DNA of 64,000 bases, taken from NCBI RefSeq assembly GCF_900142185.1, contig NZ_FQZZ01000004.1, forward strand, positions 1-64,000. Reading direction: 5' to 3'. Source of the DNA: Lutimaribacter pacificus. GTDB taxonomy: Bacteria > Pseudomonadota > Alphaproteobacteria > Rhodobacterales > Rhodobacteraceae. The translations under genes were made by a program, and so were the position numbers. This document shows, piece after piece, positions 9,627-21,976 of this stretch; positions within the stretch are counted from its first letter, which is position 1; each line of letters starts with the position of its first letter. Under the pieces are notes generated by a model that worked only from the letters and a program-made list of their open reading frames with translations, had not been told where the DNA came from and made no database searches.

Positions 9627-13761
<4,135 letters not shown>

Positions 13762-13900
13762 ATGTCTGGTCACCTTTCGTTTCTCATCAGACGACACGGC
13801 CGTCGGGCTCCGGCCATGCGCCCATCCGAAACAGGGGGTTCTGGATCAATTCCCGGGCGTTGTCCCACCAACGCCCTCCCGATCCGGCGAACCGCACCTT

Positions 13901-13923
13901 GGAAAACACCCCCGTTCCGGGGG
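13901..13923 (-). terminator. Attenuator-like hairpin between rplL and rpoB
   Basis: On the minus strand CCCCC, a five-base loop and GGGGG (13909-13923) are followed by TGTTTTCC, the shape of a weak rho-independent terminator. It lies about 140 bp before rpoB and 85 bp after rplL. Position and form suggest partial termination that sets the ratio of polymerase to ribosomal protein mRNA. This is inferred by analogy with the E. coli rplL-rpoB attenuator. Confidence 0.55.
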
Positions 13924-13942
13924 CCCTTGCCAAGACAGGTTC

Positions 13943-13973
13943 GGCTGGGCCCGGGATTTGCCCGGACCCAGCC
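13943..13973 (-). other. Long stem-loop in rplL-rpoB spacer (possible processing site)
   Basis: A 13-bp inverted repeat with one mismatch (13943-13955 pairing with 13961-13973, five-base loop, arms beginning GGCTGGG) lies directly upstream of the attenuator-like hairpin. There is no T-run. In E. coli an RNase III site occupies the same interval, so a double-strand processing site is a reasonable guess. Confidence 0.5.
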
Positions 13974-13986
13974 CATTCAAAAGTCT

Positions 13987-14000
13987 CCGGGTCGCCCCGG
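13987..14000 (-). other. GNRA-capped stem-loop after rplL stop
   Basis: On the minus strand CCGGG-GCGA-CCCGG begins seven bases after the rplL stop codon. The four-base loop GCGA fits the stable GNRA class, and the same design recurs in the rplA-rplJ spacer. Confidence 0.5.
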
Positions 14001-14006
14001 CGCTGA

Positions 14007-14390
14007 TTACTTCAGCTCGACTTCGGCGCCAGCTGCTTCCAGCTTGGCTTTGATGTCTTCGGCTTCGGCCTTGTCGACGCCTTCCTTGACGGCTTTGCCG
14101 CCGGCTTCGACCAGGTCCTTGGCTTCTTTCAGGCCCAGGCCGGTGATGCCGCGCACTTCCTTGATCACGTTGATCTTGGATGCGCCTGCCGACTTCAGGA
14201 TGACGTCGAACTCGGTCTGCTCTTCGGCAGCCGCGCCTGCGTCACCGCCAGCCGCCGGGCCAGCCATCATCACGGCGCCGCCAGCGGCGGGCTCGATGCC
14301 GTATTCATCCTTGAGGATGGTTTTCAGTTCCTGTGCTTCGAGAAGCGTCAGACCAACGATCTCTTCTGCGAGTTTTTTCAGATCAGCCAT
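14007..14390 (-). CDS. rplL: 50S ribosomal protein L7/L12
   Basis: A 127-residue L7/L12, the flexible stalk protein that recruits translation GTPases. An N-terminal dimerisation domain ([20 protein letters not shown]) leads into an Ala/Gly-rich hinge around residues 36-56. The C-terminal domain contains [20 protein letters not shown], the conserved factor-binding helix region. It lies 70 bp after rplJ and is followed by the attenuator region before rpoB. Length and order are normal. Confidence 0.98.
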
Positions 14391-14460
14391 TTTACTGTTT
14401 CCGTCTATCTAGATGTGTTCCAACGTCAGGCAATCGCCACGACGCGGGGTTCTGGGTTGC

Positions 14461-14979
14461 TCAAGCCGCCTCGGCCTTCTCTTCGATGGTCGAGAGGATG
14501 CTTGCGATGTTCGAAGCAGGTGCGCCAATGGCCCCGGCAATGTTCGAAGCGGGTGCGCCGATGCAGCCGACGATCGAAGCGATAAGCTCCTCGCGCGACG
14601 GCATTTTCGACACGGCTTCGACACCGGCCCGGTCCAGAGCGTTCTCGCCCATTGCACCGCCAAGGATTTCGAACTTCTTGTTCTCCTTGGCGAATTCCTC
14701 GGCCACCTTGGCTGCTGCCACGGGGTCCTCGGAATAGGCTAGAACGGTCATGCCCGACAGAAAGTCCGCAATGCTTGCGCATGGCTTCCCCTCAAGGGCG
14801 ATCTTGGCGAGCCTGTTCTTGGCAACGCGCACGGACCCGCCCGCATCACGCATACGCGCGCGCAGGTCCTGCATCTCGGCAACCGTGATCCCCGCGTAGT
14901 GTGCTACCACCACGACGCCAGAGCTTTCGAAGATCTGGCCGAGTTCGTCGACCACTTTCTCTTTCTGGGCTCTATCCAC
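14461..14979 (-). CDS. rplJ: 50S ribosomal protein L10
   Basis: A 172-residue L10, which anchors the L7/L12 stalk to 23S rRNA. The start [20 protein letters not shown] and the block [20 protein letters not shown] are characteristic. The C-terminal L12-binding region contains a tandem repeat of IGAPASNIA (codons near 14500-14570), encoded by two about 33-bp direct repeats. A 235-bp leader rich in hairpins precedes it, where L10 or L10-L12 would be expected to autoregulate. Confidence 0.97.
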
Positions 14980-15214
14980 AGTTTCACTCCAAGTTTGGGG
15001 GTTGCCCCCCGGCTCATATTTGGCGGGTCGCCCCGCCGTTCGGGTCCAGTTTCAGGGTCCCGAGGCCAGATCGCCCGAGGGGCTCACACCCGACGGTCAA
15101 TTGTCTCGATCCCCATCTCAGGAAGGAATTACAGGGCTCGCGCCCAACCCTCCGTCTCGGACAGGACAGGGCCGTTTCCGGCCCCGCCATTCAGCGGGTC
15201 GCCCCGCGGAATTC
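14980..15214 (-). promoter_or_regulatory. rplJ leader with five GNRA-capped stem-loops
   Basis: This 235-bp spacer holds no gene. Read on the minus strand it forms five hairpins whose four-base loops all fit GNRA: 15194-15207 (GCGGG-GCGA-CCCGC), 15169-15184 (GGGCCG-GAAA-CGGCCC), 15134-15145 (GGGC-GCGA-GCCC), 15022-15037 (GGCGGG-GCGA-CCCGCC) and 14997-15010 (GGGGG-GCAA-CCCCC). The first begins eight bases after the rplA stop and the last ends about 18 bases before the rplJ ATG. L10 leaders regulate this operon in other bacteria; that this array does so is inferred. Confidence 0.6.
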
Positions 15215-15913
15215 TTACTCGGTCGTGGCGTTGGCCACGTCGATCGACACGCCCGGCCCCATCGTGGAGCTGAGCGACACCTTCTTCATATAGGTGCCCT
15301 TGGCGCCGGCGGGCTTCGCACGGGCCACGGCCGCCACGAAGGCGCGGACGTTCTCGACCAGCTTGCCCTCGTCGAACGAGGCCTTGCCGACACCGGCATG
15401 CACGACACCGGCCTTTTCCACCTTGAACTGGACTTCGCCGCCCTTGGCGGCCTTGACCGCGTCGGCCACGTCCATGGTCACGGTGCCGACCTTGGGGTTC
15501 GGCATCAGGTTGCGCGGGCCCAGAACCTTGCCCAGGCGGCCGACGATCGGCATCATGTCCGGCGTGGCGATGCAGCGATCGAACTCGATCGTGCCGCCCT
15601 GGATGGTTTCCATCAGGTCCTCGGCGCCGACGATATCCGCGCCGGCTTCCTTGGCTTCATCCGCCTTGGGACCACGGGCGAAGACGGCGACGCGCACGTC
15701 CTTGCCGGTGCCGTTCGGCAGGCCGACCACACCCCGGACCATCTGGTCGGCGTGGCGCGGGTCGACGCCCAGGTTCACGGCGATCTCGATGGTCTCGTCG
15801 AATTTCGCGGTTGCGTTGCCCTTGATCAGGGCGACGGCATCCTCGACCGACAGGTTTTCCTTGCCGACAAAGGCTTCGCGGGCTGCACGGGTGCGTTTTC
15901 CGATTTTTGCCAT
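15215..15913 (-). CDS. rplA: 50S ribosomal protein L1
   Basis: A 232-residue L1, the 23S rRNA stalk protein and translational repressor of the L11 operon in other bacteria. It starts [20 protein letters not shown] and contains the signature [20 protein letters not shown]. The start lies one base after the rplK stop, so the two are co-translated. Length is normal (about 230). Confidence 0.98.
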
Positions 15914-15914
15914 C

Positions 15915-16340
15915 TTACTTCACCTCGATGCCCATGGACCGCGCCGAACCCAGAATGATCTGCATCGCGGCGTCGATATCGTTGGCGTTGAGGTCCTTCA
16001 TCTTGGCCTCGGCGATTTCGCGCACCTGCGCGACGGTCACGCTGCCCACGGTTTCGCGGCCGGGGGTCTTGCCGCCGGATTTCAGCTTGGCGGCCTTCTT
16101 CAGGTAATACGACGCCGGCGGCGTCTTGATGTCCATCGTGAAGGACTTGTCCTGATAATACTGGATCACCGTCGGGCACGGGGCGCCCGGCTCCATATCC
16201 GCCGTCTTGGCGTTGAAGGCCTTGGTGAATTCCATGATGTTGATGCCGCGCTGACCCAGTGCAGGGCCCACGGGCGGCGAGGGGTTCGCCTGACCGGCGG
16301 GCACCTGAAGCTTCAGCGTGCCGACGAGTTTCTTGGCCAT
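15915..16340 (-). CDS. rplK: 50S ribosomal protein L11
   Basis: A 141-residue L11, part of the GTPase-associated centre. The start [20 protein letters not shown] at 16340 gives the family length; the frame is open seven codons further. The proline-rich [19 protein letters not shown] and the C-terminal RNA-binding region ending [10 protein letters not shown] are intact. It is one base from rplA and 112 bp from nusG. Confidence 0.98.
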
Positions 16341-16410
16341 CTGGCCTCTCCTTCTTTCCAACAGCCCGCCGACGCGTCAGCCGGGCCTTTTCGTTGTCGT
16401 GGTCCGGTCC

Positions 16411-16426
16411 GGGCATCGCGATGCCC
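16411..16426 (-). other. Palindromic stem-loop in nusG-rplK spacer
   Basis: A perfect 16-bp palindrome, GGGCATCG and its complement, lies 26 bp after the nusG stop. It could fold with a CGCG loop. It resembles the other post-stop hairpins of this block in position but not in loop sequence. Confidence 0.4.
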
Positions 16427-16452
16427 TCGCCTCCCACGGCTCGCCACTCAGA

Positions 16453-16986
16453 TCACGACTGTTTCGTGACCTGCGTGAATTCCAGTTCGACCGGGGTTTC
16501 CCGGCCAAAAATCGACACCGACACCTTCAGGCGCTGGTTGTCTTCGTCCACTTCCTCGATCATGCCGTCGAAATCCTCGAACGGCCCGTCGTTGACCTTG
16601 ACCTTCTCGCCCACCTCGAACCGGATGAGCGTGCGCGGCGCCTCTTCGCCTTCCGCCACGCGGCCCAGGATCGCCTCGACCTCGGCGTCGCGCATCGGCA
16701 TCGGGCGGCCCTGCGGGCCAAGGAAGCCGGTCACGCGGTTGATCGAGTTGATCAGGTGATAGCCGCGGTCCGACATTTCCATCCGCACCAGGACATAGCC
16801 CGGCATGAAGCGGCGTTCGGTCGTGACCTTCTTGCCGCGGCGCACCTCGATCACTTCTTCGGTGGGCACAAGGACCTCTTCGATCTGGTCCTCCAGACCG
16901 TTCTCCGCGACGGCCTGCCTGATCTGCTCGGCGATCTTCTTTTCGAAATTCGAGAGCACGCTCACCGAATACCAACGCTTCGCCAT
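16453..16986 (-). CDS. nusG: Transcription elongation/termination factor NusG
   Basis: A 177-residue NusG that binds RNA polymerase through its N-terminal domain ([20 protein letters not shown]) and Rho or S10 through a C-terminal KOW domain ([20 protein letters not shown]). The GYVLVRMEM segment is typical. It lies between secE and rplK on the same strand, the usual order. A rho-independent terminator-like hairpin lies upstream, so it may have a promoter of its own that I could not identify. Confidence 0.97.
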
Positions 16987-17065
16987 CTTGACCTCAGCCC
17001 TTGTCCCTTCGGCCCGCTGACCGAAAAACTGTTTGATTTCCTACGCTTGCGCGCACATCCCGAAA

Positions 17066-17101
17066 CAAAAAATCGGCGTGCAACACGAATCGCCGCACGC
17101 C
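17066..17101 (-). terminator. Rho-independent terminator or attenuator between secE and nusG
   Basis: On the minus strand GGCGTGC (complement of 17095-17101), a 13-base loop and GCACGCC (complement of 17075-17081) are followed by GATTTTTTG, a good U-tract. It lies about 80 bp after secE and 80 bp before nusG. Either secE transcription ends here or read-through into nusG is attenuated. Confidence 0.75.
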
Positions 17102-17182
17102 ATTTTCGGATCAGACCTGCCTGTTACAAAGAATGTTCAGGCTTGGCAACCCTGACGGGCGGAATTTCGCGGGTTCCGGCGA

Positions 17183-17380
17183 TCAGCCGAAGACGGTCAG
17201 GACCGCCTGCAAACCCGAACGGATCAGCAAATCCGCAAGCCCGAAGAACACCGCCGTCAGCGCCGCCATGATGAACACCATGACCGTGGTCAGCACCACC
17301 TCGCGGCGGGTGGGCCAGACCACCTTGGACACTTCCGCCCGGGTCTGCTGAATGAACTGGAGGGGGTTCGCGCGCGCCAT
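17183..17380 (-). CDS. secE: Preprotein translocase subunit SecE
   Basis: A 65-residue single-span SecE, an essential part of the SecYEG channel. It begins MARANPLQFIQQTRAEVSKV, carries the conserved VVWPTRREVVLTT amphipathic segment, and has one membrane helix (about residues 29-50). The short form is normal for alphaproteobacteria. Unlike in many relatives, no tRNA-Trp or tuf gene is found directly upstream; a membrane-protein gene on the same strand is there instead. Confidence 0.96.
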   Translation of the reverse strand: MARANPLQFIQQTRAEVSKVVWPTRREVVLTTVMVFIMAALTAVFFGLADLLIRSGLQAVLTVFG

Positions 17381-17435
17381 GCCTGCACCTTTTCGATCGG
17401 ATCAGCCGCTCACATACTTGGCCGGGGCGGCGAAT

Positions 17436-18116
17436 TCAAGGGCGCGCTGCCTGTTGCGCCCGCGCCTCGTCCTGCAGCTTGTCGAAACGCTCGGCCAGCG
17501 CCTGCCGGTGGCGCTCCTCCTGGTCCTGCAGCGAATTCAGGTCGGGCAGGTAAAGCGCATCGACCGTCCCCTCGGGAAAACGGTCGAGAAACGCATCCCA
17601 GCGCAGCGCGATCCCATCGGCCCGGCGCCGCAGCCTTTCGGCCTTTTCGGGGTTGCGAGCGTGAAACCGGTTGTAAAGCCGCAAGACCCCCGCCCAGAAC
17701 CGGTCGTGACCGACCGACAGGAAGATGCCCGCGACGATCAGGGCCGGCAGCAGGACGACCGTGACCAGCAGCCAGGGCCGCAGCACCACCAGCAGCACCA
17801 GCGCGGCAAGGGCGACATGCCGCAGCGTGGGCCGATAGGCACACAGCCACGCGATCCTGTCCTGCACCGGCGCGGGCAGGCGCGGCCGCCTTGCCCCGGC
17901 CGTATCGGCAGCCCGTTCGGCAGCGCGTATCCGGTCGCTCAGACCCGCGTCGCCGGGGTCTTTCGCCGTGTCGCGGGACGCGGCGGGCGTCTTGGGCGGG
18001 ATGGCCGTCACCGGCCTTGCCCGAACGGCAGGCGGTTCCGCGCCCTCGTCGTTCAACAGCGCGCGGATCGCAAGGATATCCGCATCCGGCTCCACCCCGT
18101 TCTTTTGCTCGCTCAT
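17436..18116 (-). CDS. Conserved hypothetical membrane protein upstream of secE
   Basis: A 226-residue protein I do not recognise by name. The first about 90 residues are polar and low in order (MSEQKNGVEPDADILAIRAL...). Two adjacent hydrophobic segments follow at roughly residues 100-135. The last about 90 residues are charged and probably helical, with the heptad-like stretch LQDQEERHRQALAERFDKLQ. A GTG two codons upstream is an alternative start, but the ATG at 18116 has a GAGAGGTGG Shine-Dalgarno sequence. It ends 55 bp before secE on the same strand and may be cotranscribed with it. Confidence 0.6.
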   Translation of the reverse strand: MSEQKNGVEPDADILAIRALLNDEGAEPPAVRARPVTAIPPKTPAASRDTAKDPGDAGLSDRIRAAERAADTAGARRPRLPAPVQDRIAWLCAYRPTLRHVALAALVLLVVLRPWLLVTVVLLPALIVAGIFLSVGHDRFWAGVLRLYNRFHARNPEKAERLRRRADGIALRWDAFLDRFPEGTVDALYLPDLNSLQDQEERHRQALAERFDKLQDEARAQQAARP

Positions 18117-18138
18117 ATCCACCTCTCAACGCATCACA

Positions 18139-18160
18139 CCCGCCCTGCGCGCAGGGCGGG
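18139..18160 (+). other. Perfect 22-bp palindrome in a divergent promoter region
   Basis: The half-site CCCGCCCTGCG is followed directly by its exact reverse complement. It sits 22 bp upstream of the membrane-protein gene start (18116, minus) and about 215 bp upstream of the carboxylase gene (18376, plus) in a 259-bp divergent spacer. It could be an operator or a transcribed hairpin. I saw no clear -35/-10 pair around it. Confidence 0.5.
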
Positions 18161-18375
18161 GCGGTTCGCCCGGCAATGTCCCGGCAAAATCGGGCATTCC
18201 CGCGTCATCCTTGCGGCAAAACCGTGGCCACCACCCCCTCCCCCGGGACGTGAGGTAAAATCCATGCCGTCCAAGGGCTTGCCCTTTTCACCCCCGCGCC
18301 GCGCCGTTTTGAAATTGAGTATGCGCCGCCCGCTTCGTAACGTCGCCGCGTGCCTGTCGCAAAAGGAGGAGTGCG

Positions 18376-19995
18376 ATGTGGACCGGACCGCAACTGGGCC
18401 CCGATACGCCGGGCTATGACGACAACCGCGCCGCGATGCTGGACGCCATAGCAGAGTTGCGGGCGCTGGAGTCGCGCGCCGCCCGCAAATCCGAGGAACG
18501 CCGCGCGCGGTTTCACGAACGCGGCCAGATCACCCCGCGCGAACGGCTGGCGCGGCTTCTCGATCCCGCCATGCCGTTCCTGCGGCTGCACAGCCTCGCG
18601 GGTTATCTCGCCGACAGCGACGACCCGGAAAAATCCATCCCCGGCAGCACCTTCCTTGCCGGGATCGGCTTTGTCTCGGGCGTGCGCGCGGCCATCGTGG
18701 TGGATGACAGCGGGATCAACGCGGGCGCGCTCAGCCCGATGGCGCTGCAGGCTATGCTGTCGGTGCAGGACATCGCGCTGCGGCAGAAGCTGCCCTTCAT
18801 CCACCTGGTCGAAAGCGCGGGCGCCAACCTGATGAACTACCGGGTCGAGGATTGGGCCCATGGCGGCGCGGTGTTCCGCAACCTCGCGCGGCTTTCGGCG
18901 GCGGGCCTGCCCACCATTGCCGTGCTGCATGGCCCGTCCACGGCGGGCGGCGCTTACATGCCGGGCCTGTCGGATTACGTGATCGCGGTGCGCCCGAACG
19001 GGATGGCGGCGCTTGCTGGCGCGGCGCTGGTCCATGCGGCGACCGGCGAAAAGACCACCGACAAGGAGGTCGGCGGCGCCGAAATGCACGCCAGCGTTTC
19101 CGGCCTTGTCGAATACCTGGCCGAGAGTGACGCACATGCCATCGAAATGGCCCGCCGGGTCGTGGCACGGCTGGACTGGAACCGCGATGTAACGCCCCCG
19201 AAACCGCGCGGTTTCGCCCCGCCATCGCGCGATCTGGACGAGCTGGCCGGGATCGTGCCCGCAGATCCCAAGACCCCCTGTGACATGCGCGAGGTGGCGG
19301 CGCGGCTGGTCGACGGCTCCGCGTTCGACGAATTCAAACCCGGCTTCGGCCCCGGCACCCTGTGCCTGCAGGCGCAGATTCACGGCATCACCGTGGGCAT
19401 CCTTGCCAACAACGCCCCCATCGACCCGGCAGGCGCCAACAAGGCCACGCATTTCATACAGGCCTGCGATCAGGCCGGAACGCCGCTGGTATTCCTCAAC
19501 AACACCACCGGATACATGGTCGGCACCGAGTATGAACGCGCCGGCATGATCAAGCACGGATCGAAGATGATCCAGGCCGTGTCGAACGCGCGCGTGCCCA
19601 AGATCACGCTCTATTGCGGATCGAGCTTCGGCGCAGGCAATTACGGCATGTGCGGCATCGCCTACGAGCCCGATTTCCTGTTCGCCTGGCCCAATTCGCG
19701 TTCGGGCGTGATGGGCGGCAAACAGGCGGCCCGCACCATGAGCATGGTGGCCCGCGCCGGTGCCGCACGGCGCGGCGCCGATATCGACGAAACCCGGCTG
19801 GCCCGGCAAGAGGCCGCCATCGAGGCGCTGTTCGACCGGCAATCCAGCCCGTTCTACACCTCGGGCCGGGTGCTCGACCACGGGGTGATCGACCCGCGCG
19901 ACAGCCGCAAGGTGCTGGCCTTCTGCCTGCTGACCTGCCTTGAGGCGCGGCGGCGTGGCCTGCGGCCCAATTCCTTTGGCGTGGCGAGGATGTGA
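18376..19995 (+). CDS. Acyl-CoA carboxylase, carboxyltransferase (beta) subunit
   Basis: A 539-residue carboxyltransferase of the biotin-dependent acyl-CoA carboxylase family, transferring CO2 from carboxybiotin to an acyl-CoA. It has the paired crotonase-like domains: the first includes HGPSTAGGAYMPGLSDY, the second GSSFGAGNYGMCGIAYEPDF and the glycine-rich SGVMGGKQAARTM. These resemble methylcrotonyl-CoA and geranyl-CoA carboxylases more than propionyl-CoA carboxylase, but specificity is not proven. A perfect AAAGGAGGA Shine-Dalgarno precedes the ATG. The biotin carboxylase gene starts at its stop codon, so the two subunits are coupled. Confidence 0.88.
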   Translation: MWTGPQLGPDTPGYDDNRAAMLDAIAELRALESRAARKSEERRARFHERGQITPRERLARLLDPAMPFLRLHSLAGYLADSDDPEKSIPGSTFLAGIGFVSGVRAAIVVDDSGINAGALSPMALQAMLSVQDIALRQKLPFIHLVESAGANLMNYRVEDWAHGGAVFRNLARLSAAGLPTIAVLHGPSTAGGAYMPGLSDYVIAVRPNGMAALAGAALVHAATGEKTTDKEVGGAEMHASVSGLVEYLAESDAHAIEMARRVVARLDWNRDVTPPKPRGFAPPSRDLDELAGIVPADPKTPCDMREVAARLVDGSAFDEFKPGFGPGTLCLQAQIHGITVGILANNAPIDPAGANKATHFIQACDQAGTPLVFLNNTTGYMVGTEYERAGMIKHGSKMIQAVSNARVPKITLYCGSSFGAGNYGMCGIAYEPDFLFAWPNSRSGVMGGKQAARTMSMVARAGAARRGADIDETRLARQEAAIEALFDRQSSPFYTSGRVLDHGVIDPRDSRKVLAFCLLTCLEARRRGLRPNSFGVARM

Positions 19996-19997
19996 AC

Positions 19998-21976
<1,979 letters not shown>

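Follow-up and report, generated by a model that had tools for sequence, protein, structure and literature searches.

The window, by which we mean the whole 64-kb stretch of DNA analysed here, carries on its minus strand the order rplA, spacer, rplJ, rplL, Rhodo-rpoB RNA (RF03074) and rpoB. rplA (15215-15913) ends at 15215, and the adjoining rplA-rplJ spacer (14980-15214) constitutes the rplJ leader region, as indicated by the open reading frames, the fold z-score and an alignment of 111 leaders. rplJ, encoding L10, is an open reading frame with a GTG start (14461-14979), whose first 11 nt, GTGGATAGAGC, are almost invariant; the closest named rplJ is that of Lutimaribacter saemankumensis (95% identity). 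By sequence and place, GGAG at 14987-14990 is the Shine-Dalgarno of rplJ. Further along the same strand, rplL (L7/L12) lies at 14007-14390 and was recognised by its translation, and RF03074 (78.4 bits) occupies 13793-13885, between rplL and rpoB. The names rplA, rplJ and rplL were given from recognising the translations.

By gene layout, the leader sits in the 5' UTR position of rplJL, and we infer that the spacer is transcribed as the rplJL 5' UTR. The fold z-score is -3.27 (14977-15214), and conservation of this upstream region extends to 80 named relatives and 120 further genomes of the family. The latter (119 other genera and the sister species) were taken from 137 other family genomes with an rplJ match, the 17 unused ones including the five lowest-scoring rplJ matches. 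Among the 60 of 80 named loci in which rplA was located, its distance to rplJ is 800-2201 nt in 38, presumably with genes inserted between the two.

GNRA-capped hairpins of the leader

The preliminary description had reported five GNRA-capped stems in this spacer, and all five are present on the minus strand with correct coordinates. The hairpin h1 (GCGGG-GCGA-CCCGC, 15194-15207), recovered by the stem scan, lies just 3' of the rplA stop; h2 (GGGCCG-GAAA-CGGCCC, 15169-15184), found by stem scan and folding, stands directly upstream of the L10 site described below; h3 (GGGC-GCGA-GCCC, 15134-15145) is the apical hairpin of that site; h4 (GGCGGG-GCGA-CCCGCC, 15022-15037) and h5 (GGGGG-GCAA-CCCCC, 14997-15010) follow downstream, the latter after a conserved GAGCC. 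Covariation supports h3, h4 and h5. A scan for perfect stems (at least 4 bp, 4-nt loop) returned six on the minus strand of 14980-15214, five of them GNRA; the sixth has the loop CAAC and is the last GNRA hairpin in a shifted register. The additional GCGA hairpin that had been claimed after rplL is there as well, at 13987-14000.

A single loop class had been deemed unexpected by chance, and rightly so: dinucleotide shuffles of the leader gave a mean of 0.07 GNRA stems and a maximum of 2, five being reached in 0 of 2000 shuffles, and GNRA loops cap 30 of the 776 such stems on both strands of the window, the leader's five included. Among 121 leaders, 49 have no GNRA stem, 43 have one, 17 two, 9 three and 3 four or more; the five-of-five pattern is exceptional even among homologous leaders. 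Both the window and the sister species (L096) have five GNRA stems, and in the latter three of the five loops have other letters, yet all are GNRA. As for the hairpin core GGGGCGACCC, it was considered as a genome-wide repeat and ruled out, with 19 places in 4.4 Mb (three of them between 13989 and 15205) vs 17 for the reversed pattern.

A kink-turn and UAA site shared with E. coli

Alignment, covariation and a covariance model (R1) point to an L10(L12)4-type site at 15110-15169, on the minus strand, composed of an outer C-stem, a kink-turn, an inner stem, an apical hairpin and an unpaired UAA. The C-stem is formed by the 5' strand CCUGUC (15160-15165; G8, U9, C10 and C11 are invariant in 114 sequences) and the 3' strand GAUGGG (15112-15117), the latter placed by alignment and covariation. 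The 3-nt bulge CGA, followed by GA (15155-15159), lies opposite UGA at 15118-15120, and the UAA is at 15129-15131. The window's site scores 70.6 bits with R1, the window being one of the 114 training sequences of that model.

These features are widely kept in the family. The bulge strand reads CGAGA in 92 and CAAGA in 22 of the 114 aligned sites, so that C[AG]A-GA is present in 114/114; the opposite strand has GA in 109, the window among them, and UA in the other 5; the UAA is found in 106/114, again including the window. Of 121 leaders, 119 have the 5' motif UCC[AG]AGA, at a distance of 167-220 nt (median 187) upstream of the start codon. The alignment of 114 sequences (A1) omits the sister species (L096), two leaders without the 5' motif (L118, L214), two missed by the pattern (L138, L140) and two that we set aside (L110, L134). 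A second alignment (A2), of 111 leaders, omits L096, L118, L214 and seven divergent or long leaders (L188, L209-L213, L215). In L214 (genome G031), no L10 site could be recognised upstream of rplJ and the spacer is AT-rich, which would correspond to site loss or to a divergent lineage.

Covariation of the rplA-rplJ spacers had been suggested as a check on the hairpins, and compensatory changes proved abundant in both the 114 and the 111 leaders. Over the site, 92.9% of cells are paired, vs 80.7% in shuffles and 59.2% at best when the pairing is slid (n=114), and 241 cells are changed on both sides, vs 92.5 +/- 7.3 in shuffles. Most of these double changes fall in the five apical pairs and one inner pair, the outer stem showing mostly one-sided changes: all 5 apical pairs (h3) are changed on both sides, with 84.5% of cells paired, and the covarying inner-stem pair is UG in 60 sequences, AU in 33 and CG in 17. 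In the 111 leaders, 6/6 pairs of h4 (84.3% of cells paired) and 4/5 pairs of h5 are changed on both sides, and together the two hairpins hold 198 double-changed cells vs 68.0 +/- 6.2 in shuffles. A scan of all column pairs ranked the inner-stem pair first (98% paired) and recovered h3, h4 and h5, in a background of strong clade structure in which never-pairing columns still reach z 13.5.

The preliminary description had taken the leader for an L10-binding fold not of the E. coli type. The first part stands, as the fold is conserved and very probably binds L10; the second part does not, since R1, built from 114 Rhodobacteraceae sequences only, picks out the site in the E. coli rplJ leader (26.6 bits, E 4.8e-6, the next match in 5 kb reaching 7.9 bits). 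This match, which assigns the window's site to the E. coli type, was found with the search filters off; the default filters missed it. We take the E. coli site matched by R1 to be the one defined by experiment.

Of 28 loci from other families of the alphaproteobacteria, R1 also finds the site in 27 (L241 is without a match), always on the rplJ strand and ~100-290 nt upstream of rplJ, with E values from 3e-8 to 0.45, the weakest of which (0.2-0.45) rest on position. Searched with strict filters and E up to 1, 32 of 96 genomes of the class gave 35 matches, of which 26 lie just upstream of rplJ, including all 22 whose E does not exceed 0.04. In the order, R1 matched each of the 101 genomes drawn (weakest best E 2.9e-9), every one of them being listed under the window's family and some belonging to the R1 training set. 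These matches show the same predicted site running from Rhodobacteraceae through many alphaproteobacterial families to E. coli, and the leader of the window very probably carries such an L10(L12)4-type site, at which the complex would bind. According to two papers (PMC4538822; PMC10931766), a kink-turn and a UAA are the binding determinants of L10(L12)4, and the second lists the L10 region for Fusobacteria, Actinobacteria, Cyanobacteria and Chloroflexi. The literature that we searched, with few subscription papers in it, contained no description of an alphaproteobacterial L10 leader.

At E 10, the Rfam family RF00557 (gathering cut-off 44 bits) matched neither the window nor the E. coli site, and it also missed 12 relatives. 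Since it misses the E. coli site as well, its absence in the window means little. Above the cut-off it was found in 0 of 100 family genomes and 0 of 142 class genomes; the present analysis places a strong predicted L10 control site in Rhodobacteraceae, where this family had found none in those 100 genomes. The best RF00557 match in the class (G176, 41.5 bits) was a false lead, as it is not at rplJ. In a genome of another family (G226, locus L093, 1501-1613), RF00557 (25.3 bits, below the cut-off) and R1 (30.1 bits) match the same place; this alphaproteobacterial rplJ leader bridges RF00557 and the Rhodobacteraceae leader family.

The E. coli rplJL leader is alike in operon place (182 nt from rplJ vs the family median of 187), in its succession of C-stem, kink-turn, inner stem, apical hairpin and UUAA, and in being aligned by R1 over the whole length of its site. 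It differs in the second GA of most Rhodobacteraceae, which in E. coli is UA, and in the ATG start of its rplJ, the invariant GUGGAUAGAGC start being a feature of Rhodobacteraceae.

A proposed alternative pairing of the C-stem strands

Downstream of the site, GGAC (15044-15047, minus strand, in the window) is invariant in the 111/111 aligned leaders, seven divergent or long leaders being outside this alignment. It is the complement of GUCC in the 5' C-strand, and we propose it as the partner of that strand in a three-way junction. In the other families, the downstream segment consists of the complement of the 3' C-strand followed, often gaplessly, by that of the 5' C-strand, as in CCCUG-GGACAGG against CAGGG and CCUGUCC. 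Compensated variants are seen in L229 (GCCUGUUGA/UCAACAGGC), L093 (UCUUAUCUG/UGGAUAAGA), L261 (CCCGUCC/GGACGGG) and E. coli (ACGGUGA/UCACCGU and CGUC/GACG). This two-strand layout, in which one downstream segment can pair both C-stem strands, is shared by E. coli and many families of the alphaproteobacteria.

The Rhodobacteraceae have as 5' pair the two invariant sequences GUCC and GGAC, and as 3' pair ACGGG/CCCGU, with CCCGU downstream in 50 of the 72 leaders that have a GRCGGG strand vs 13.9% in shuffles. The window's own lineage differs from E. coli in that the 3' alternative partner has changed: here, the column-pair scan and folding suggest CUCGGGACCC (15055-15064, minus strand) as the alternative partner of GGG-AU-CGAG (15105-15113), and 29 of the 42 leaders that carry a GAUGGG strand have CUCGGGA[CA]C, a count made without a shuffled control.

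Scored over both strands, 29 sites in the other families reached 28.24 with their own partners vs 26.43 +/- 0.46 with swapped partners (0/300) and 22.18 +/- 0.57 with shuffled ones (0/100). As the two-strand form was defined after the restricted-interval result reported below, this test is not independent; a replicate on 15 sites not used before gave 27.73 vs 25.77 +/- 0.50 for swapped (0/500) and 22.24 +/- 0.84 for shuffled partners (0/200). A wrong-order control came close to the own scores (25.3 vs 28.2 for the 29 sites, 26.8 vs 27.7 for the 15), so that the order of the segments is only moderately supported. For the single 3' C-strand in the other families, the best match anywhere gave a null result (13.66 vs 13.11, better in 16/29) and the restricted interval a weak one (11.59 vs 10.83 +/- 0.32 swapped, 8/500).

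Within the family, the 3' C-strand alone beat letter shuffles in 115 leaders (12.44 vs 10.33 +/- 0.16) and was not distinguished from swapped partners (12.27 +/- 0.10). The two-strand swap gave 25.67 vs 25.90 +/- 0.14, with 25.66 in the wrong-order control, and an attempt to lengthen GUCC/GGAC by one pair failed (74/111 leaders vs 77.5 +/- 2.1). The within-family tests were without power or negative, and covariation does not support the alternative pairing there. Across families, that is the other alphaproteobacteria and E. coli, the predicted alternative pairing is supported by covariation, and such pairing would best explain the conserved GGAC.

The three-way junction is lower in energy in 16 of 19 sites (median -5.5 kcal/mol), the window being one of the three exceptions, in a comparison that is biased, as it used 19 of 30 sites and left out 11 with weaker or gapped matches. 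With a hand-chosen pairing, the junction of the window has an energy of -79.7 vs -75.6 for the kink-turn conformer, the unconstrained minimum being -86.2.

The chances appear to us evenly balanced that proteobacterial rplJ leaders in general are strand-exchange switches, in which one downstream segment takes both C-stem strands into a three-way junction and L10(L12)4 reverses this by closing the kink-turn. Older work on the E. coli rplJ leader may already describe an alternative pairing there. A common alternative junction, if true, would offer a concrete and testable model for E. coli-type repression, the mechanism of which is called unresolved in detail in a 2024 review, the site being far from the ribosome binding site (PMC10931766).

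Probable control of rplJL and possible role of the hairpins

In E. coli, rplJL is subject to translational autoregulation by L10(L12)4, as stated in two papers (PMC10931766, PMC4538822). We consider it probable that the leader of the window is likewise an autoregulatory 5' UTR of rplJL, with L10(L12)4 acting at the kink-turn and UAA site, control at translation and strand exchange as the switch. By analogy with E. coli and Bacillus, free L10(L12)4 would most probably bind at 15110-15169, and from homology this binding would lower rplJL expression when ribosomal RNA is scarce. Bound L10 would keep the outer C-stem of the kink-turn closed; without L10, both C-stem strands would pair one downstream segment and form the three-way junction. 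This strand exchange would be the step most likely to act as a switch, in a direction that we infer. Control would most likely be exerted at translation, because on the sense strand no U-tailed terminator was found from the site to rplJ.

Ensemble folding of 118 leaders, free vs with the site closed, showed no consistent change at the Shine-Dalgarno (unpaired 0.35 vs 0.37; exposure up in 21 leaders and down in 14), and its occlusion by simple folding was dropped as unsupported. In the window, closure of the site exposes the Shine-Dalgarno (0.32 to 0.68), the opposite of repression by simple occlusion. In the free fold of the window, the Shine-Dalgarno CUUGGA is paired to the kink-turn strand UCCGAG, and GGAUAG in codons 2-3 to CUGUCC; this would make L10 an activator, and no such trend is seen in the family.

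The start of rplJ itself, GTG GAT AGA GC (14969-14979, minus strand), is exact in 198 of 201 sequences, with AGA in 120/120 and GAT in 118/120 genera. Six genes of the window, rplJ one of them, use AGA for only 4 of their 143 Arg codons, and its invariance despite this rarity suggests a constraint at the nucleotide level inside the coding start; it also suggests that this start takes part in an RNA contact.

Instead of acting at translation, L10 binding could favour a terminator in the leader, that is transcription attenuation as in Bacillus. According to PMC4538822, the Bacillus subtilis rplJL leader uses the same recognition determinants, kink-turn and UAA, within overlapping, mutually exclusive helical structures. 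However, a consensus scan of the minus strand from the L10 site to rplJ detected nothing resembling a terminator hairpin, and what comes after h5 is AAAC and the Shine-Dalgarno rather than U, which makes attenuation unlikely here. RF00557 also differs on this point, as in the Rfam alignment it ends in an intrinsic terminator, and none was found in the leader of the window. Another reading gives the GNRA loops themselves a function: docked into receptors, they could shape the leader into a compact tertiary structure for L10 binding or RNA processing. Five loops vs 0.07 expected would suit such a function, as would the loops of the sister species, altered in letters and still GNRA, and the general enrichment of rplJ leaders in this loop class: 121 leaders hold 119 GNRA stems (mean 0.98) vs 0.037 per shuffled leader, and the 80 named relatives have 0.61 per leader vs 0.05 in an equal stretch of rplJ. 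Loop conservation, on the other hand, is not what the homologous hairpins display, except partly at h5: GNRA is in the majority there (60/116 genera) and in the minority at h2 (15/119), h3 (24/114) and h4 (23/116), the remainder being UNCG (29/119 at h2), other tetraloops, triloops and longer loops. These shares cover h2 to h5; h1 was judged by eye in other leaders, among those listed. Moreover, it is not the loops that hold the conserved letters, but the kink-turn, the UAA, GGAC, GAGCC and the start region. We therefore regard a function of the loops as such as very improbable, and the best explanation is that they are not the recognition element, with only h3 belonging to the L10 site as its apical part.

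UNCG stems are enriched as well (0.19 per leader vs 0.024 in shuffles, 121 leaders), and together with the GNRA enrichment this indicates that stable tetraloops are favoured in the leader family; the GNRA hairpins would then be stable, covarying leader stems whose loops tend towards stable tetraloops. Tentatively, h1, h2, h4 and h5 might serve mainly in the stability or processing of the rplKA-rplJL-rpoBC transcript. Such a role is consistent with the stable GC-rich hairpins found between rplL and rpoB as well, with the UUCG hairpins that other genera have in place of h2, and with the 0.38 GNRA stems per equal (235 nt) stretch near the rplL end in the 80 named relatives, vs 0.05 in the rplJ coding sequence; stable tetraloops are perhaps favoured in the rplL-rpoB spacer too. 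It would leave the kink-turn, the UAA, GGAC and the invariant rplJ start unexplained, and, being compatible with L10 control, it does not exclude the autoregulatory reading that we prefer. Stems are easy to find in GC-rich sequence, and the hairpins might then be chance products of the spacer. We give this practically no credence, as the fold z-score and the shuffle test argue against it and the covariation in 114 and 111 leaders already refutes it.

A few observations concern the surroundings of the site. In several relatives (L013, L016, L023, L049 and L057 are the loci of these observations), a UUCG hairpin with a U tract (e.g. AAAGCGTGCGATTCGTCGTGCGCTTTATTT) lies a few bases upstream of the L10 site, and may represent a terminator or else the start of the rplJ leader; in 56 of 119 genera, GATTCG lies no more than 45 nt ahead of the site. 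On the other side of rplL, the minus strand of the rplL-rpoB spacer (13886-14006) has, besides the GCGA hairpin at 13987-14000, a long hairpin at ~13943-13974 and, just ahead of RF03074, a GC hairpin at ~13901-13926 that ends in a GUUUU tail. This last one might partially terminate transcription between rplL and rpoB, and was not among the sites listed by the terminator scan.

RF03074 is, like the rplJ leader, a cis element of this operon; it matches nowhere else in 10000-20000 and is therefore not the rplJ leader. Finally, RF02858 (Arrc08), filed as an Actinobacillus sRNA, left the leader of the window unmatched at E 10 and matched the E. coli rplJ leader (L216, 2837-3078) with 36.9 bits, its cut-off being 219; from this match, the Actinobacillus member is probably a gammaproteobacterial L10 leader.
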